50,461 nt of DNA, from the NCBI GenBank assembly GCA_022690815.1, contig JALCZJ010000019.1, forward strand, positions 1-50,461. The letters run 5' to 3'. The DNA is from Ferrimicrobium sp. (lineage in GTDB: Bacteria; Actinomycetota; Acidimicrobiia; Acidimicrobiales; Acidimicrobiaceae). A program made the position numbers and the translations under genes. The notes below the pieces were generated by a model. The model searched no databases and was not told where the DNA came from. It saw only the letters and a list, made by a program, of their open reading frames with translations. Positions 37,212 through 47,378 of the stretch are shown here, piece after piece. Each line of letters begins with the position of its first letter. Positions within the stretch are counted from its first letter, which is position 1.

Positions 37212-38426
37212 CTACTCTGGAGACTCTTCGTCGTCTGGGGGTGGCTCGATCTTATCGAGCTCCATGGTGATCGCCTCGCCTCGGCTCAATTTCAATGATA
37301 CGTAGGTGCCAACGCCGATTGGGATGGGAATCCAGAAGTTAAAAAGTCGATAGGAGAGCACGCCGAGTATGGCGATGCCCTTCGCGGTACCAAATCCAGT
37401 GATGAGCGGTATCATAATTCCCTCGACGACACCGAGGCCGCCCGGCGTGATGGGGATGGCAGCTGCTACGTTGGCGATGCCGTAACTCACCAATAGCGCA
37501 TCCGGATTGACAAGGGAGCCAAATGCTAGCAACATGATCCAGAGACTCAGGGCGTCGAAGAGCCAGTTGCACGCCGCCCAGAAGATCGCTCGCTTGAGCA
37601 GTTCAGGATCACTCATAAGGGAGCGAACGCGCTCTCCGGCCCTGATGACGCCGGAGTGTAACGGGGCCTGGATTCGTTTCAGGAGCGGAACCTTGCCGAC
37701 CAATTTGTCAACGAGGACGACGACCCGATCGTTGCCTCGCGTCAGTGTCAAGACGAGCACGATCACGGCCGCCATGAGGACGATGCCGAGAGCGGCGACA
37801 ATCAGATACAACGTGTTGAAACCAAAGAGTGGTAACGAGATAATGAGTGCAAGCCAGAGCATGGCGTTGAGCACGACTGCGGAGCCGATTCCCTGGGTCG
37901 CGAGGGCGACCCCGGCATCGGTGCCTCGCACCCCGAGTCCATTCAAGAGGCGGACGGTGAGACCGGCACCGCTCGCTGTCCCGCCTGGGAGCACATGAGA
38001 GACGGCGAGCCCTGACATGTCGACTTTTGCGAGTGATTTCAGTGAGGGCTGAGGGTGCGGCAGGACGGCCGAGGTGAGCTTGGCATAAGCAAAGAGTGAG
38101 AACGCTTCGGCGACGACGGCCAGCGGAACGAGCCAATAGTTGGCTTGGCTCAAGAGATGCAGGGTTTTTCTTGCACCGGCGATCTGGGGAATTACGAGGT
38201 ACTCAATCACCAAAAGGATGGCAAAACCCCAGATGCCGCGGATGGCGAAGTGGCGAATCAGCTTACCGAGACTGCGACGTGTCCCGGTGATAACCTCACG
38301 CGATTGATCAGTCGGGAGTCGGTGAGAGCTATTGCGGCGTCCGTCACCGCTCCTCGACCTCCACGTGCTCACCCCATTTACCTTAGTGGAGGCTTTCCAG
38401 AAAAGGTTCCCCCAAGTGGTTGTCAA
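37212..38426 (-). CDS. Lysylphosphatidylglycerol-synthase-type transmembrane protein (UPF0104)
   Basis: This polytopic membrane protein of up to 404 aa has six to eight hydrophobic segments. It belongs to the UPF0104/LPG synthase TM family, recognised by SHVLPGGTASGAGLTVRLLN early on and AAIPITPGGLGVVEGIMIPL in the C-terminal half. The family translocates or modifies lipids, but here the soluble aminoacyl-transferase domain of true MprF is absent, so it is a stand-alone flippase-like unit. The tail is acidic (PPPDDEESPE). The TTG start at 38426 gives an unconserved basic leader. GTG 38372 is a plausible alternative. Confidence 0.85.
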   Translation of the reverse strand: MTTTWGNLFWKASTKVNGVSTWRSRSGDGRRNSSHRLPTDQSREVITGTRRSLGKLIRHFAIRGIWGFAILLVIEYLVIPQIAGARKTLHLLSQANYWLVPLAVVAEAFSLFAYAKLTSAVLPHPQPSLKSLAKVDMSGLAVSHVLPGGTASGAGLTVRLLNGLGVRGTDAGVALATQGIGSAVVLNAMLWLALIISLPLFGFNTLYLIVAALGIVLMAAVIVLVLTLTRGNDRVVVLVDKLVGKVPLLKRIQAPLHSGVIRAGERVRSLMSDPELLKRAIFWAACNWLFDALSLWIMLLAFGSLVNPDALLVSYGIANVAAAIPITPGGLGVVEGIMIPLITGFGTAKGIAILGVLSYRLFNFWIPIPIGVGTYVSLKLSRGEAITMELDKIEPPPDDEESPE

Positions 38427-38649: not shown

Positions 38650-39750
38650 ATGGCACGAGCTGACGCACCGGGTCGATATAGCGGCTTGGGCCGACAGATC
38701 TTTCTCGCGGAGGTTGGCCTCTTCGGTCTCGTCTTGGTGGTTATTGTCCTGTTGTATCTTCGGCACCTCACGATTGAAGTGCTGGTTGCCATCGTCGGTG
38801 CCGTGATTTTGGAGCCGCTTGTCAAACTGCTGATGCGTGCCCACCTGCCTCGGGGTGCGGCGGTCGCCTTGACCGTGTTCGTTGCGGCCGTGGTGCTGGT
38901 TGGAATTTTGTTTATCTTTAGCGTGCCACTCTATTCCGCAGGGTTGCGACTCGCTAATGATCTTCCGACGCTCATTCGAGACGTTGGGCACAAGAAGTCC
39001 CATCTCAATTCGCTGTTGACCAAGTTCCATATCGAACATTACTTGAATCTCTCAGCCCAAGGATTGGCCAAGGTTGCAAGTACAGCGCTGGTTCCAGCTT
39101 TGCTGGCTGCCACGGGGGTACTTTCGTTCCTGGCTGACGTCGTCATTACCGCGATGTTGGCGGTGTTCTTCTCATTGGAGGGACCAAAGGCGATCGATGT
39201 GATCGCTGGTTTACTTCCCGAGGTTCGCCGCCGTCACTTTCTTGATGCCTTGCACGAGACGGCTGTTGCTGTGAGTGGCTATGTGCTCGGCAATCTCGCA
39301 ACCTCGATCATTGCAGGGGTCGTCGTCTACGTGGCCTTTAAGTCACTGGGCTTGCCTTTTGCGTTGCTCGTCGCCGTCTGGGTGGGATTGGTCGATCTGA
39401 TTCCGTTGGTGGGCGGGCTCTTGGCTGGTATTCCGGCGGTTGGTTTATCGCTACTGCACGGGATCGTCGCAGCGATCATCGTGTTGGTGGTCTTCGTGAT
39501 CTATCAGCAGATTGAGAATCACATTCTGAATCCTGTGATCCTCTCGCGGACGGTTCAATTGAACCCACTGTGGATCTTGCTTGCAGTGCTGGTAGGTGCG
39601 CAGTTTGCCGGCATTCCAGGAGCGTTGGTGGGTATCCCAATCGCGAGTGGTCTGCAAGTCCTAGCACGGCGCCTGCTGGCGCCATGGCTGCGCTCCAAGC
39701 TCAATCCACAAGGTTCAAATCCCGTGCCCCGAGAGGACGGAGAAGCCTAG
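38650..39750 (+). CDS. AI-2E family transporter / PerM-like permease
   Basis: This 366-aa membrane protein is of the AI-2E exporter/PerM superfamily, with about eight membrane segments and the typical layout: two N-terminal helices (ILLYLRHLTIEVLVAIVGAV-like), an amphipathic loop with paired coils (residues about 100-160) and a conserved C-terminal block (LVDLIPLVGGLLAGIPAVGL, and YQQIENHILNPVI). Substrates of this group vary (signal molecules, ions) and are unknown here. It is divergent from the UPF0104 gene by 223 bp and its last 36 bp overlap the convergent deacetylase gene on the other strand. Confidence 0.9.
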   Translation: MARADAPGRYSGLGRQIFLAEVGLFGLVLVVIVLLYLRHLTIEVLVAIVGAVILEPLVKLLMRAHLPRGAAVALTVFVAAVVLVGILFIFSVPLYSAGLRLANDLPTLIRDVGHKKSHLNSLLTKFHIEHYLNLSAQGLAKVASTALVPALLAATGVLSFLADVVITAMLAVFFSLEGPKAIDVIAGLLPEVRRRHFLDALHETAVAVSGYVLGNLATSIIAGVVVYVAFKSLGLPFALLVAVWVGLVDLIPLVGGLLAGIPAVGLSLLHGIVAAIIVLVVFVIYQQIENHILNPVILSRTVQLNPLWILLAVLVGAQFAGIPGALVGIPIASGLQVLARRLLAPWLRSKLNPQGSNPVPREDGEA

Positions 39751-40428
39751 CTGCTGGGAGTTGACGAGGTCGACTAACTGAGGAAGCGCCTTCAGTGTGG
39801 CTTGAAAGGAGCCAGGGTAGGAGGTGTAGTCGCTGTCGTGCAAGAGTATCGTGACGCCGGGGCGAAAGCGGGAACGAAGCTCTGCCATGACCGAGACAGA
39901 GGTTGCCTGTCGACGCCAGTCGCGGCCCCACGTGCCCCAGAGGACGATGCGCAAACCATGGGCATGGGCGGCGGCGAGGTCGGCACGGGTGACAACTCCA
40001 TACGGTGGGCGGTACCAGGCTGGATGCACCCCGGTTGCTCGTTCGGTCGCATCCAGTGCTCGGGCGAGATCATAGCGAACACTGCGAGAGCTCCGGAAGA
40101 GGTGATTCTTGTGCCAATACCCGTGTGTCCCAACCTCGTGTCCACGCTCGACGATCTCGCGCGCGAGTTGAGGCTGGCGATCGATCATCTCGCCAAGCAG
40201 AAAAAATGTGGCCTGCACGCCGTTGGCCTCAAGTGCATCGAGGACGAGCGGTGTCGAGATCGGGTCCGGACCATCGTCGAAGGTAAGCGCGACTGATTGA
40301 GGGTGCCCAAAGCCGAGCAACCATGGAGCGGTGATTGGAGCGAGTATCCATGTGTGGGTCACGAAGGAGCCAACGTGAATGGCAAGCTTGGTGCCGGCGA
40401 TCGTTGCGAGGGCCGTCGTCGTCTTCAT
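39715..40428 (-). CDS. Polysaccharide deacetylase (NodB-like), membrane-anchored
   Basis: This carbohydrate esterase family 4 enzyme of 237 aa would remove acetyl groups from a surface or cell-wall glycan. The N-terminus (TKLAIHVGSFVTHTWILAPI) is a signal/anchor segment that places the catalytic domain outside. The metal and catalytic motifs are intact: TFDDGPD (catalytic Asp and metal Asp), GHEVGTHGYWH (metal His pair), RPPYG and the final LLHDSDYTSYPG His. Its ATG overlaps the stop of the glycosyltransferase fusion by four bases (ATGA, 40425-40428), so the two are translated together and presumably act on the same product. Confidence 0.93.
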   Translation of the reverse strand: MKTTTALATIAGTKLAIHVGSFVTHTWILAPITAPWLLGFGHPQSVALTFDDGPDPISTPLVLDALEANGVQATFFLLGEMIDRQPQLAREIVERGHEVGTHGYWHKNHLFRSSRSVRYDLARALDATERATGVHPAWYRPPYGVVTRADLAAAHAHGLRIVLWGTWGRDWRRQATSVSVMAELRSRFRPGVTILLHDSDYTSYPGSFQATLKALPQLVDLVNSQQLGFSVLSGHGI

Positions 40429-42197
40429 GCGCGCGCGCTCACATGGGTATGCAGCGTGGCAAAAGGAGCGAGGATCAGGTGGTCATTTGTCAGATGGTTT
40501 AGCTCAGACTTGATGATCGACAAAGCTGTTGCCGCCGAGTCATGGCTTAAGTTCAATTCGAGAATGGCTCCCGGGTTTGGTTTCATGTCAAAGTGGTGGC
40601 TAATGATTCGAGCAGGAACGACGGTCTGGTGATGGATCGAGGCCCACGCAAGGTCTACAGCGTTCATCGTATTCTGGGGGAGGTAGGTGTTGATCTGGAG
40701 TCCGAGTATACGTGCGAGGTCGGCGCGTCCCGTTGAGAGATCATTGTCCGGAAGGATGAAGTTGAAGTCCGATGAGGCGCCCGTTCCGCCGTTGATGATC
40801 CCCACCCCGTTGCGATAGGCGGAGCGTACAGCCGTCGGATCGGCAATCGCCTGTTGACCGGTGACGACCACGCCGATGCCGGCATTGGTAACGAGTTGGT
40901 CGATGGCGGGGTTGGCCAGCGCCTCTGAGGATAAGCGAGCGGAGACATAAACATAATTTGACTTCTTCGCTGTTCTGGTGAGATTGAGGCCGTGATAGCC
41001 AATCACACCAGAAAGGAGGTTGGCAACGACAAATAAGACCACCAACGTTGCAGCCGATCGAGTGAGGCGTCGTGCCAGGACGCCATGGCGAGTCGTTGGC
41101 GACAGGCGGGCCTCGTGGAGAAGCTCGAGAATGGGTTGTTGGGGTTTAGTTTGAAACTGTTCGAGCTGCTTGGCGACCTGGATCTGCGGTGCGACGCCCT
41201 GTTTGCGCACCTCGTCGATCAACTGTTGGGGGGACTGGCACCAGATCGTGGCGCCCACCGAGTCCATCGCGGCGATGTTTTCGCGGCCATGGCCAACGAT
41301 GGGGCGAAACGAAAGAACCGGGCGCCGTGAGGCCATCGCCTCGAGAGCAGTAAGTCCGCCGGCGTTCTGGATGATGACGTCAGATGCCGCCATATACAGC
41401 CGAACATCCTCGGTCCAACCGACGGCGGTGCCGTTGGGATAGGGAGCGAGACGGTGCAGGAGTTCGTCGTTGTGCCCACAGAGGGCGACAGGGTGGAGAT
41501 CGTCATGGCTGGCGATGAGTGCAAAAGTCTCAGCGATATCACCGACCCCCCAAGATCCTGACGAGATTAATGCGATGATCTTGTCATCTGGGAGACCGAG
41601 CGCCTCTCGTGCAGCCTGGCGATCGATCGTTTCAAAGAACGCAGAGTCCACGAACGGGCCGGCGACCACGATGTCACCAGAGGCGCCTGCGCGACACTTG
41701 GCCTGCTCGGCCGCGGTCTCGGAGACGCAGAGATGGAGATCAACATCGGGGTGCACCCACAAGGGATGGACGGAGTAGTCGGTGAGGAACGTGGCGATCG
41801 GTCGGTGCGAGATGACTGGATTGTGGTGCCGACGCATCTGGCCAAGGAGTTGAGCGCTGAACGGATGTAGTGCGATGATGATGTCAGGATCCGACTCTTC
41901 GATCCATTTGACTACGCCCCGCTGGAAGAACGTCTGCAATGTTCGACGTGTGAAGGTGGCCATAGGGGCGAACCGATTCCATAGCCAGAACTCGAGCTGG
42001 TAGGCCCACGGGGCTCGCTTGACCTCTAATTTAAACCCACGCTCTAGCAAGCGGCCCATCCGGGGAGAAGCATCAAGAAAATCGCGCGTCTCGCATTCGA
42101 TCCCATAGCTGCGTAATTTGTTGGTGATCGCTCGGGCGGCGCCATCGTGACCGCCCCCCATCCGAGCAGAGATCAGGAGTGCCTTTGTGCTTGACAT
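40425..42197 (-). CDS. GT28-like glycosyltransferase fused to a TM helix and a degenerate NodB-like domain
   Basis: From ATG 42197 this is 590 aa with three parts. Residues about 1-365 are a MurG/monogalactosyl-diacylglycerol-synthase-like GT-B enzyme (ALLISARMGGGHDGAARAI, SSGSWGVGDI, then QNAGGLTALEA at 278-288 for UDP-sugar binding). Residues 382-403 are a membrane helix. Residues about 415-590 resemble a polysaccharide-deacetylase fold (AGIGVVVTGQQAIADPTAVR, GVGIINGG, NPGAILELNLSHDSAATALS), but TFDDGPD, the HxxxxH pair and RPPYG are not seen. The glycosyltransferase would act in the cytosol and the C-domain outside. It is coupled to a live deacetylase gene. A longer frame to 42323 overlaps the divergent gene and is unlikely. 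Confidence 0.82.
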   Translation of the reverse strand: MSSTKALLISARMGGGHDGAARAITNKLRSYGIECETRDFLDASPRMGRLLERGFKLEVKRAPWAYQLEFWLWNRFAPMATFTRRTLQTFFQRGVVKWIEESDPDIIIALHPFSAQLLGQMRRHHNPVISHRPIATFLTDYSVHPLWVHPDVDLHLCVSETAAEQAKCRAGASGDIVVAGPFVDSAFFETIDRQAAREALGLPDDKIIALISSGSWGVGDIAETFALIASHDDLHPVALCGHNDELLHRLAPYPNGTAVGWTEDVRLYMAASDVIIQNAGGLTALEAMASRRPVLSFRPIVGHGRENIAAMDSVGATIWCQSPQQLIDEVRKQGVAPQIQVAKQLEQFQTKPQQPILELLHEARLSPTTRHGVLARRLTRSAATLVVLFVVANLLSGVIGYHGLNLTRTAKKSNYVYVSARLSSEALANPAIDQLVTNAGIGVVVTGQQAIADPTAVRSAYRNGVGIINGGTGASSDFNFILPDNDLSTGRADLARILGLQINTYLPQNTMNAVDLAWASIHHQTVVPARIISHHFDMKPNPGAILELNLSHDSAATALSIIKSELNHLTNDHLILAPFATLHTHVSARA

Positions 42198-42238
42198 TGA
42201 CACACATCTTATTCGGACGCCATAGAATAAGAGACCTC

Positions 42239-43096
42239 GTGGTGGTGCTTCTTTCTCTCCTGGCTGCGGTTTGTTTTGGAATGGCTGCGGTGCTCCAATT
42301 TCAGGCAAGCACGGTGTCGGCAAGCGAGTTGAATCTTCGGTTCAGCCTCCTGTGGAAGCTGTTGGCCAATCCGCGTTTCGGCCTTGGTGCAGTGTTTGAT
42401 GTCGTCGGTGGGGCCGCACAGTTCTTTGCACTGAAATATGGGTCAGTAGCACAGGTTTTGCCGATCTTGGCCAGCGGATTTGTCTTGGCCATCCTCCTCG
42501 AGCACTTTCTTGCACGTCGGCCCATTGCTGTTGGGGATGTGATCGCTCTGCTGGTGAGCTGTGGGGCCTTGATCGCATTTTTGGTGCTCAGCCCCCAGGC
42601 CAGCGGTCATATGATCTATGTCGGACCATCCATCGTGGTTGGTGTCATCGGCATCGCGGTTGGTGTTGCTACTATCACGGTGCTTCGTCCGGCGCTTGCG
42701 GGCCATGGGCGCATCCAGGCGATGGTTGGAGCGCTGCTGCTCGGGGTTGTCTCGATCTTTGAGCGTGAGGTAGGAATCGTCTGGAGCGACGAAGGGGCAG
42801 TGCGAACCCTCGAACATTGGGAGCTTTGGGTGTTGGTCGTGGTGGGGACCCTGGCCCTTCTGGTGGTACAAAGTGCCTTCCAGCAACAGAGTCTCGCGCG
42901 CGTCCTCCCGCTGGTGACGGTTGGGGAACCGATCGCCGCGATCGCCATCAGCACCGCAGCGTTGCAGACGCCATTGTTTGCAGGCGGGGTGCGTACGCCA
43001 GTAAGCGTGATCGCCCTCGCGGTGGAGATCCTTGCGCTTATTTACTTGGCGCGCTCCGAGGTGCGCATCAACGTGAAACTTCATGACCAGGAGTGA
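42239..43096 (+). CDS. DMT-superfamily (EamA/NIPA-like) membrane transporter
   Basis: A polytopic protein of about 285 aa has nine or ten hydrophobic segments arranged as two similar halves. The first helix contains AAVCFGMAAVLQFQAS. Small motifs such as QFFALKYGSVAQVLPILASG, then later ARVLPLVTVGEPIAAI, fit drug/metabolite-type or NIPA-like transporters. The substrate is not deducible. I chose GTG 42239, leaving a 41-bp divergent gap to the glycosyltransferase; an upstream GTG at 42179 would overlap that gene's start. The stop overlaps the next gene by 14 bp. Confidence 0.75.
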   Translation: MVVLLSLLAAVCFGMAAVLQFQASTVSASELNLRFSLLWKLLANPRFGLGAVFDVVGGAAQFFALKYGSVAQVLPILASGFVLAILLEHFLARRPIAVGDVIALLVSCGALIAFLVLSPQASGHMIYVGPSIVVGVIGIAVGVATITVLRPALAGHGRIQAMVGALLLGVVSIFEREVGIVWSDEGAVRTLEHWELWVLVVVGTLALLVVQSAFQQQSLARVLPLVTVGEPIAAIAISTAALQTPLFAGGVRTPVSVIALAVEILALIYLARSEVRINVKLHDQE

Positions 43097-43796
43097 TCTT
43101 GAGGTGGTGTTCCTCCACGGACAACCGGGACAAAAGGAAGATTTTGCCCTGGTGTCTGAGTGGCTGGAGCCCCGGTTGCGTCTGCGTTGTCTGGATCGAC
43201 CAGGGTGGGGGTCGAATCCACTGGGCGTTATTGGGATAGAGGGTAACGCCGAGTGGGTGGCACGCCAGTTTGAGACGCGCCGCGTGCTGCTGATTGGACA
43301 CTCGTTGGGCGCTACCATCGCGGTTCGAACAGCGCAGCTCTTCCCTGATCGTGTTGCGGGTCTGATCCTGATCGCTCCTCCGATCACCCAGCGCTCGTTG
43401 GTGGCGATCGACCGGCTGCTGGCCGCCCGTTTTATCGGACAGATGACCTCGGCACTGATCGCAGGGGTGAGCCTTGGGCCAGCACGCAGAGCGCAGTTTC
43501 GGCGCACCAGGCGTAGCTTCCTTGCCGAGCAGCGTCATTTACTCGGCGAATTGCGCCTGGTTGAGGGGGAACTTCCCCTGGTTGTCTGTCCTTCGATCGT
43601 CATCGTCGGCGTTCGTGATCGGGTGGTTCCGCTGGCAGCCATGGCGCAAGCCGCACAGCATTTGGCGGATGTCCAGCTCGAGGTGCTGCCCTCAGCGGGA
43701 CACGATGTCTTGCGTGTGGCACCTATCGAGACGGCTGCTGTGGTCCGAGGAATGATCGGTCGGCTTGAAGCAATCGGCGGGGAAGGGGGGGAGTAG
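43083..43796 (+). CDS. Alpha/beta-hydrolase
   Basis: This 237-aa cytosolic hydrolase has the oxyanion motif HGQPGQ, the nucleophile elbow GHSLGA (Ser at about 84), a catalytic Asp in GVRDRVVP and the catalytic His in SAGHDVL. These form a complete Ser-Asp-His triad. The cap region (about 110-160) is rich in Arg. The substrate is unknown. It overlaps the transporter gene by 14 bp and is likely co-transcribed with it. Confidence 0.88.
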   Translation: MTRSDLEVVFLHGQPGQKEDFALVSEWLEPRLRLRCLDRPGWGSNPLGVIGIEGNAEWVARQFETRRVLLIGHSLGATIAVRTAQLFPDRVAGLILIAPPITQRSLVAIDRLLAARFIGQMTSALIAGVSLGPARRAQFRRTRRSFLAEQRHLLGELRLVEGELPLVVCPSIVIVGVRDRVVPLAAMAQAAQHLADVQLEVLPSAGHDVLRVAPIETAAVVRGMIGRLEAIGGEGGE

Positions 43797-44131
43797 GGCG
43801 CAAGCTTGAAGGATACTGCTGGGGTGCTAGAGATCCAGTAGGGCACGGTGTATCGAGCGAGGCACGTGAGACTGTGACAATCGCTAGTAATAATCGATAC
43901 GCGCGATTGTCGGAAGGATTATCAACCTTGCGACGTTATCAGAGTTATTGTGGCTTTCTGTATACCGATGGTCGCAAGCTTGTATTATACTTATATTGTC
44001 GTCCGGTCAAGTGGGCGATGAGCTGAGGGACAATGACGTCCGGCGTGAGCACTGCTCGTTGGTTTGACGACTCGGTTGGTAGCTCGAACTCGGGGGATCG
44101 AGGTTCCAAGGAACGAATTCGGAGGTGCTCG
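43797..44131. other. whiB upstream region with an inverted repeat and AT-rich segment
   Basis: No gene is seen. A nine-base perfect inverted repeat (43876-43911) is described separately. From about 43960 to 44000 the sequence becomes AT-rich (ttgtattatacttatattg), which is where a promoter for whiB would fit, though no good -35/-10 pair stands out. The leader of whiB is therefore probably more than 100 nt. Confidence 0.45.
43876..43911. promoter_or_regulatory. Perfect 9-bp inverted repeat upstream of whiB
   Basis: GACAATCGC (43876-43884) and GCGATTGTC (43903-43911) are exact reverse complements separated by 18 bp. The arm centres are 27 bp apart, about 2.5 helical turns. It may be an operator or the stem of a hairpin that ends transcription of the alpha/beta-hydrolase gene. 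It is not followed by a T-run. Confidence 0.5.
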
Positions 44132-44422
44132 ATGGAGTCGGCGAAGTTGGCGACCTGGGATTATGAGGCGTGGCGTAGCAACGCGAAGTGTCGTGATACT
44201 GATCCGGGATGGTTTTTCCCCGTTGGGGTGACGGGTGACGCCGAGATTCAGATTCGGCGCGTGAAAGAGTTTTGCTCCGATTGTCCGGTGTCACTTGAGT
44301 GCCTTGAGTTCGCCTTGCGGACGAATCAAGAGTACGGCATATGGGGCGGCAAGGACGAAGAAGAGCGACGGGTTATCCGGCGAATTCGCAGAGTTCAGCG
44401 CAGGGCGCGGGTCGCGTCATAA
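44132..44422 (+). CDS. WhiB-family iron-sulfur transcription regulator
   Basis: WhiB-like proteins bind a [4Fe-4S] cluster and regulate development, redox stress or antibiotic response in Actinobacteria. From ATG 44132 the protein is 96 aa, with a near-ideal ribosome site (GGAGGT, 44121-44126). A frame open to 44033 would add 33 unconserved residues. The four cluster cysteines are C20, C48, C51 and C57 (FCSDCPVSLEC), followed by the GIWGG turn (69-73) and a basic helix (RRIRRVQRRAR) for DNA or sigma-factor contact. Its last 28 bp overlap fdhD on the opposite strand, so the two transcripts would be mutually antisense there. Confidence 0.95.
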   Translation: MESAKLATWDYEAWRSNAKCRDTDPGWFFPVGVTGDAEIQIRRVKEFCSDCPVSLECLEFALRTNQEYGIWGGKDEEERRVIRRIRRVQRRARVAS

Positions 44423-46676: not shown

Positions 46677-47378
46677 TTAGTGAATTGCCGTTCCAAGCAG
46701 GTAGCCAACACCGAAGGTGACTAACGCTGCTATCGCGCTCAACAGGAACTGCTGCAGGGCACCCTTGCTAACACTCCGGCCAGTCATGGCGGCGAGGCCA
46801 CCCCCGACAAGCAGGGTTGCAACGCCCGCCGAGATGGCTGATGCGACCACAGCCGCCGTCCCAACGGTGATGAACCAGGCGATCAGCGGGATCACGGCGC
46901 CGACAGCAAACGAGAAGAACGATGCCAATGCGGCTTGAATGGGTGAGCCGATGGAGTCAGGTGCTACACCGAGCTCTTCCTGCGCGTGGACCTTGAGCGC
47001 CGTGTCGGGGTTTTGCATCAGGTATTTCGAGACCTCAGCAGCAAGCTCGGTGGGGACTCCTCGCGAGACGTAGAGCTGTTCCAGTTCGCGGGTCTCGGCC
47101 TCTGGACGTTCCTGGATTTCGCGCTCTTCGATACGGAGTTCATGAGCAAAAAGCTCTCGTTGTGCTCCCATTGAGATGTACTCGCCGACCCCCATGGAGA
47201 AGGCACCAGCCACCAAGCCGGCTAAGCCAGCGATCACGACCGCTTTTGGAGCGGGGTGGGCGCCGGCGACACCGAGGATCAAGGCGACGTTCGATAAAAG
47301 GCCATCAGAGACGCCGAACACCGCAGCACGGGCACCTCCGCCGGAGATGTCACGATGGGAGCTGTGATGAGTTTCCAT
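46677..47378 (-). CDS. VIT1/CCC1-family iron/manganese transporter
   Basis: This 233-aa membrane protein of the vacuolar-iron-transporter family moves Fe2+ or Mn2+ out of the cytosol (in bacteria, across the cell membrane). Helix 1 has the family signature FGVSDGLLSNVALILGVAGA. Helix 2 carries AGAFSMGVGEYISMGAQRE, followed by the Glu-rich metal-binding stretch (ELRIEEREIQERPEAETREL). Three more helices complete the usual five. In an acidophile exposed to high ferrous iron this is a sensible detoxification protein. No partner gene is evident. Confidence 0.93.
   Translation of the reverse strand: METHHSSHRDISGGGARAAVFGVSDGLLSNVALILGVAGAHPAPKAVVIAGLAGLVAGAFSMGVGEYISMGAQRELFAHELRIEEREIQERPEAETRELEQLYVSRGVPTELAAEVSKYLMQNPDTALKVHAQEELGVAPDSIGSPIQAALASFFSFAVGAVIPLIAWFITVGTAAVVASAISAGVATLLVGGGLAAMTGRSVSKGALQQFLLSAIAALVTFGVGYLLGTAIH

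Follow-up and report, generated by a model that had tools for sequence, protein, structure and literature searches.

Gene cassettes of the HexSDF and GpgSDF types put cationic sugar lipids into membranes, and the membrane face on which their deacetylases work is not settled (PMC10128005). In the available parts of that report, an MGDG-synthase-type glycosyltransferase (HexS), a polysaccharide deacetylase (HexD), and an MprF-like flippase (HexF) of Clostridioides difficile are needed for an amino-sugar glycolipid. HexS and HexF without HexD give the acetylated glycolipid, and HexSD without HexF still yields deacetylated lipid, for which the authors' three explanations include intracellular action of HexD; they describe localization as undetermined (PMC10128005). 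A parallel system, GpgSDF, is found in Pseudomonas aeruginosa, where a gpgD mutant accumulates acetylated glycolipid and GpgD is predicted to be cytoplasmic (PMC12713373). Here we analyze a related locus in a 50,461-nucleotide stretch (the window) of contig JALCZJ010000019.1 from Ferrimicrobium sp. (genome size 2.54 Mb). In this locus a glycosyltransferase is joined, through a single membrane helix, to a C-terminal domain predicted to have a NodB (CE4) fold with a broken active site, and the next gene encodes an intact NodB deacetylase. By analogy with HexSDF, we lean towards reading the locus as an amino-sugar glycolipid cassette, in which the dead NodB domain tethered to the glycosyltransferase may couple making and editing of the lipid across the membrane.

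A glycosyltransferase fused to a NodB-like domain with a broken active site

A sequence-only reading of the window had described a glycosyltransferase, one helix, and a C-terminal domain, with the next gene overlapping by ATGA, and this anatomy and its coordinates were correct (Table 1). The glycosyltransferase part matches Pfam MGDG_synth PF06925 well above the cut-off of 25 (60.4 bits, E = 2.9e-16), which places it among MGDG-synthase-type glycosyltransferases. Its nearest solved sequences according to phmmer are the processive diacylglycerol beta-glucosyltransferase 9wde and the MGDG synthase 4wyi. Lysine and arginine are commoner before than after the helix in 72 of 72 proteins (23/23 in a smaller set), and the dead domain is therefore predicted to lie outside the membrane.

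No family in Pfam or NCBIfam matched the C-terminal domain above its cut-off, and a Pfam scan of 23 domain members returned PF01522 at E ≤1 for four of them (best 2.4e-4). In a single profile-profile comparison, 23 domain homologues matched the neighboring deacetylases with an E value of 3.5e-5 and a probability of 71.6, colinear over 162 columns. A profile of live NodB sequences also matched the domain of two distant fusions, at E values of 9e-12 and 1e-9. An AlphaFold model of the domain (pLDDT 85.2, pTM 0.84) was compared with the PDB using Foldseek, and all 34 hits at E ≤1e-3 were polysaccharide deacetylases, acetylxylan esterases, or CE4 relatives. The best was 4l1g (5.4e-8), and the solved CE4 pseudoenzyme BA3943 was also among them. 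A VIA comparison of the domain with 4l1g_D gave a Z score of 17.5 over 182 aligned residues (root-mean-square deviation 2.9). The proposal that the C-terminal domain is NodB-like thus holds for the predicted structure, which had CE4-class hits only at this threshold (34/34). Chance resemblance was rejected because sequence profiles and fold agree, and the kinship with NodB, as judged from the profiles and the model, is beyond chance.

The loss of the active site was assessed in 60 aligned homologues using the MT1 to MT5 motif definitions given in the available part of PMC10967932. Asp occurs at neither of the MT1 Asp positions (R421/L422 in the window protein) in 60/60, and the position of the first MT2 His (G470) is likewise never His (60/60), with the second (A474) being His in 7/60; the H-x(2-5)-H pattern is missing from the MT2 region of all 60. 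The MT3 Arg position is occupied by V, A, L, I, S, or C and never by Arg (60/60), and the first Pro of MT3 is retained in 55/60. No homologue has His at the MT5 position (60/60), which is mostly D (32) or N (15). Hence the C-terminal domain lacks the features of an active CE4 enzyme (metal triad, catalytic Asp, MT3 RPPYG, and MT5 His), and the sequence-only reading was right that its metal site is broken, with the MT1 Asp, first MT2 His, MT3 Arg, and MT5 His lost in 60/60. From the alignment and the modeled fold, we regard the domain as a NodB domain whose active site is broken. Other residues are conserved in its place, including Asn469 (50/60), Gly470 (55/60), and Gly471 (58/60) at the former MT2 motif, together with P507 at MT3 and Asp515 (60/60); H523 is kept in 48/60.

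When 396 genomes of the phylum were searched with a profile of the 60 domain homologues, 46 of them had matches at E ≤1e-3, and 18 such loci were examined. Half of these (nine) encode CE4 proteins with the MT1 Asp pair, L129 and L132 encode CE4-like proteins with one MT1 Asp only, and L123, L126, L136, and L137 encode distant dead domains; L124, L127, and L134 were uninformative, their best segment not being a deacetylase. L141 to L145, which come from two further families of the phylum, have fused dead domains without Asp515. The domain in L141 and L142 is closer to live NodB sequences, as the live-profile matches indicate, and L141 to L145 may be useful as early-branching forms.

The live deacetylase and conservation of the gene pair

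The protein encoded by the next gene matches PF01522 (E = 8.3e-34), and D51, D52, H102, H106, R140, P141, P142, G144, D170, and H197 are invariant in 38 aligned deacetylase homologues. It thus carries the full MT1 to MT5 set of an active CE4 enzyme, in line with the earlier description of an intact NodB enzyme. Its best NCBIfam models, all below cut-off, include PdaB and peptidoglycan deacetylases. The AlphaFold model contains one N-terminal helix (residues 2-23, pLDDT ~60), which may be a signal or an anchor, unless the protein sits on the inner face.

We compared 80 named loci, the best 80 of 431 relatives. The domain is present in 71 of the 80, including loci of Ferrithrix, Acidithrix, Acidiferrimicrobium, Frankia, and Kutzneria, but the ranking query itself included the domain, and this proportion does not give how common it is across the family. 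When genomes were drawn evenly from the order (30 loci fetched), at least 23 of 198 had the glycosyltransferase with the domain. Nine of the 80 were not counted with the domain. Two of these are cut by a contig end (L081, which still shows the domain start, and L094), L095 is a split frame whose second piece carries the domain, and six are truly short relatives (L080, L093, L100, L106, L110, and L111), with Kitasatospora and Plantactinospora among them.

Conservation of the gene pair elsewhere, on which the sequence-only reading had staked its account, was borne out by this search, with a deacetylase directly downstream of the glycosyltransferase in 68 of the 74 loci whose flanks were long enough and in 63 of 67 such loci bearing the domain; the other five are four truly short relatives and the split-frame L095. 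An MGDG-type glycosyltransferase beside a polysaccharide deacetylase, by which HexSDF-type cassettes were recognized, is accordingly found in the window and in 68/74 loci. With start codons chosen by script, the distance between the two genes is -4 in 31/73 loci and -1 in 3/73. The four domain-bearing loci without a deacetylase directly downstream are L056, L058, L074, and L092. For L056 and L058, a deacetylase lies further along the same contig, and the genomes of L074, L092, and the short L110 hold a close deacetylase homologue elsewhere. In the genome of L074 (G198), this homologue is flanked by a DMT transporter gene and a PF03706 gene, with no glycosyltransferase match within the 9 kb fetched and the glycosyltransferase fusion on another contig; in that of L092 (G199), the separate deacetylase is part of a second glycosyltransferase-deacetylase-DMT set. 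A live NodB gene also adjoins the fusion in all five distant loci fetched from two further families, which were chosen because earlier profile matches suggested the fusion. A DMT gene lies downstream in two of these five, and no PF03706 gene was found in the stretch fetched. The very divergent fusion L030, in genome G063, stands back to back with a second glycosyltransferase of the same family.

Transporter genes near the pair

The DMT gene is divergent upstream of the glycosyltransferase in 38/69 loci and on the same strand downstream in 8/69 (either arrangement in 45/69), as counted with a profile built, like that for PF03706, from the same loci in which it was applied. In the 2.54-Mb genome of the window, PF06925 has one match, the live deacetylase is the sole match to PF01522, and a search with the DMT protein gave no further relative at E ≤1e-3. 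All three genes are adjacent, and three single matches side by side are hard to put down to chance. The same genome has four PF03706 matches.

Age and selection of the dead domain

In a CE4 tree of 34 selected rows, which include nine other CE4s and have long branches and a midpoint root only, the dead domains cluster together (100/100), separate from the live enzymes of the operon (90/84) and from the nine other CE4s. A recent duplication of the neighboring deacetylase in the window's lineage was rejected because the dead domains form their own group. The unrooted glycosyltransferase tree (89 rows, 11 of them labeled short) has the domain on both deep sides, with short forms scattered within. 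At least eight label changes were counted, seven forced by well-supported branches, a count that is too high because two of the 11 short rows (L095 and L144) are split frames with the domain in the second piece. A dead domain was not found in six frames of the loci of the other nine short rows, where matches were live deacetylases or weak chance hits. Gain of the domain in one tip lineage was rejected, as it occurs on both deep sides, and the unrooted tree suggests that the domain was present early in this set, with several losses since.

The rate of nonsynonymous substitution (dN) was higher in the domain than in the glycosyltransferase part in three pairs (0.194 vs 0.115, 0.253 vs 0.188, and 0.211 vs 0.165). 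Its ratio to the synonymous rate (dN/dS) among close relatives, where dS is saturated, was ~0.11-0.13 for the domain vs 0.08-0.10 for the deacetylase. By this estimate, the dead domain is under purifying selection. Low dN/dS together with scattered absence indicates that the domain is kept for a reason, yet is dispensable in some lineages.

Proposed mechanism and alternative explanations

In the mechanism that we favor, the glycosyltransferase would add an N-acetylated sugar to a lipid at the inner membrane face, and the lipid would be carried across the membrane by the DMT transporter, the PF03706 protein, or both. The live CE4 deacetylase would then strip the acetyl group, presumably outside, to leave a cationic glycolipid, with the dead NodB domain, placed at the outer face by the glycosyltransferase helix, most likely holding either the live deacetylase or the head group of the glycolipid. 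By analogy with the described cassettes, it is probable that the glycosyltransferase adds an N-acetyl sugar to lipid and that the deacetylase frees the amine. For the dead domain, docking and head-group binding seem about equally likely. We put forward more tentatively the full version of this idea, in which the pseudo-deacetylase would take hold of the head group after flipping or bring in the live enzyme, so that one complex would make the lipid inside and edit it outside, and in which this arrangement would be old in the Actinomycetota members of the glycosyltransferase family. The sequence-only reading had likewise proposed a trans-membrane make-and-edit machine. The predicted outside position of the domain (72/72) and the linkage of a transporter gene with the sole PF01522 gene fit such a cassette; the accompanying statement in that reading that no system of this form had been described is not supported (see below).

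Several observations weigh against the proposed mechanism. A deacetylase is directly downstream in four of the six truly short relatives, in which the domain is absent, and the domain is therefore not required for the glycosyltransferase-deacetylase pair everywhere; such pairs weaken, but do not refute, the idea that the dead domain docks on its live counterpart. In G063 (78% complete), which carries the L030 fusion, there was no NodB match at E ≤1e-3. The distant f99/f77 fusions lack Asp515. The transporters are also inconstant: no DMT gene is found beside the glycosyltransferase in 24/69 loci, a PF03706 gene lies at most 4 kb downstream in only 28/63, and neither gene was found within the available flanks of the Kutzneria and Kitasatospora loci. 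In the window itself, the PF03706 gene is two genes from the pair, with the convergent AI-2E-family gene between them, and belongs to a different transcription unit. Moreover, the N-terminal segment of the live deacetylase is weakly hydrophobic, and by a rough measure the charges flanking it are more numerous before it in 22/73 proteins and after it in 39/73. With a weak helix and charges that do not favor the outside, the live deacetylase could act inside, and its membrane side is the main gap in the trans-membrane account.

This gap leaves room for a deacetylase that works on the cytosolic face without trans-membrane coupling, the outer dead domain doing something separate. We consider this a possible explanation, though a less probable one: besides the weak helix and the charge pattern without outward bias, it can draw on the predicted cytoplasmic GpgD (in the part of PMC12713373 available) and on the deacetylated lipid made by HexSD without HexF, for which intracellular HexD is one listed explanation (in the corresponding part of PMC10128005). 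The N-terminal helix would suit a signal or anchor sequence as well, however, and a dead domain outside is most easily explained by a partner or substrate outside. About as probable is a sensor role, in which the dead domain would bind the finished glycolipid outside and regulate the glycosyltransferase through the helix, with no deacetylase contact. The most conserved residues of the domain lie at the old substrate cleft and the domain persists in 4/67 loci without a deacetylase directly downstream, but a single helix offers little scope for passing a signal.

It is unlikely that the pair is merely co-transcribed, with the deacetylase acting on peptidoglycan or another glycan and the glycosyltransferase making an unrelated glycolipid. 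The below-cut-off NCBIfam models (PdaB and peptidoglycan deacetylases) and the status of the deacetylase as the only PF01522 protein of the genome would agree with a peptidoglycan target; set against this are the tight pairing in 68/74 loci, with frequent overlap, and the NodB-derived domain borne by the glycosyltransferase itself. Still less probable is that the C-terminal domain is a metal-independent enzyme rather than a dead one. There is a precedent within the NodB fold in PuuE (3CL6), which lacks both MT1 Asp residues and is not metal-dependent according to the available text of PMC10967932, and D515 (60/60) and H523 (48/60) are well kept. PuuE, however, keeps the MT5 His (PMC10967932), which is lost here in 60/60, and the f99/f77 clade lacks D515. 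Chance survival of the domain as a relic is very improbable and largely refuted by the selection estimate: it evolves faster than the glycosyltransferase part (higher dN in the three pairs) and is missing in scattered lineages, but its dN/dS is ~0.11-0.13 (dS saturated), and it forms one old clade with fold and residues conserved in 60 homologues.

Features of the locus and neighboring genes

The features of the locus are listed in Table 1. A mechanical list of open reading frames starts the glycosyltransferase at a TTG further up (632 aa) vs 590 aa for the ATG reading, and homologue alignments start at residues 1-8 of the latter. The listed start of the DMT gene overlaps the glycosyltransferase start, and its homologue in L056 suggests a start ~57-60 bases further in. 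The AI-2E-family gene is a neighbor in 26/80 named loci, and a role for it in a glycolipid system is doubtful.

TABLE 1 Coordinates of the glycosyltransferase-deacetylase locus and adjacent genes in the window
Feature	Coordinates	Strand	Remarks
Glycosyltransferase + membrane helix + pseudo-NodB domain, 590 aa	40425..42197	-	ATG at 42197, stop ends 40425
GT-B glycosyltransferase part, ~residues 1-360	41118..42197	-	MGDG_synth PF06925 match, residues 17-176
Single membrane helix, ~residues 382-400	40998..41054	-	Predicted N-in/C-out by positive-inside rule
Pseudo-NodB (CE4-fold) domain, residues 401-590	40425..40997	-	Catalytic and metal residues lost
Live NodB/CE4 deacetylase, 237 aa	39715..40428	-	ATG at 40428, stop ends 39715; N-terminal helix, residues 2-23
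Divergent DMT-type membrane transporter	42179..43096	+	NF038012 over cut-off, Pfam EamA under cut-off
Flippase-like membrane protein (LPG_synthase_TM, PF03706)	37212..38426	-	Pfam match; convergent gene between it and the glycosyltransferase-deacetylase pair
AI-2E-family transporter	38650..39750	+	Convergent with deacetylase gene, 36 bases of 3' end shared

The DMT gene overlaps at its 3' end with an alpha/beta hydrolase gene (window 43083-43796, +), which has similarly placed relatives in many related loci and may belong to the cassette. Further along, a small open reading frame at 44033-44422 (+) resembles a WhiB-type iron-sulfur regulator, and Acidithrix has a very similar open reading frame close to its own copy of the cassette (L056, 4422-4712). 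The product of the open reading frame at 46677-47378 (-) resembles VIT1/CCC1-type iron or manganese transporters.

Comparison with known systems

The claim of the sequence-only reading that no described system has this form was too strong because make-and-edit glycolipid cassettes have been described as HexSDF (PMC10128005) and GpgSDF (PMC12713373), as far as the available parts of those reports show. Our search of the open-access literature returned no description of a glycosyltransferase fused to a NodB domain in connection with a glycolipid, and for NodB pseudoenzymes it led to one review; judged by that search, a dead deacetylase fused via a helix to a glycosyltransferase seems to be new. 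Searches for work on the polar lipids of Acidimicrobiia and on amino-glycolipids of actinobacteria gave nothing usable, and a link to the "glucosamine-containing phospholipids" known from older chemotaxonomy of actinomycetes was not supported there. The locus also adds a conserved domain that no Pfam or NCBIfam model matches above its cut-off; family-based annotation, in which such fusions appear as plain glycosyltransferases, would miss it. A synthase with a dead deacetylase tethered at its outer face would also bear on the question of the deacetylase face, as it points to editing outside.

The nearest solved and described relatives each share a part of this arrangement. By sequence, 9wde and 4wyi are the closest solved relatives of the glycosyltransferase part, but their matches end at query residues 331 and 362, with no C-terminal NodB domain matched. 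The CE4 pseudoenzymes BA3943 (7bkf and 6hpa) and Ba0150 (4m1b) have a NodB fold with a broken active site and are among the best fold matches; judged by their entry titles, they differ in not being part of a membrane-linked glycosyltransferase. GpgSDF has the same three roles, filled by a glycosyltransferase, a deacetylase, and a YbhN-type flippase. As described in the available part of PMC12713373, however, it has a glycosyltransferase of the family 4 type, a COG3233 deacetylase, and a phosphatidylglycerol acceptor, with GpgS and GpgD predicted to be without membrane helices, whereas the glycosyltransferase here matches PF06925 best. HexSDF likewise encodes a glycosyltransferase, a deacetylase, and a flippase-type membrane protein together, with the same glycosyltransferase-then-deacetylase logic for an amino-sugar glycolipid. 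Here, in contrast, the PF03706 gene is near but outside the operon and a DMT transporter is the commoner neighbor, and no extra domain is mentioned for HexS in the available part of PMC10128005, a comparison by description and not by sequence. By analogy, the arrangement in the Ferrimicrobium locus, which is shared by many actinobacteria, looks like an elaborated form of these described amino-sugar membrane-lipid cassettes.

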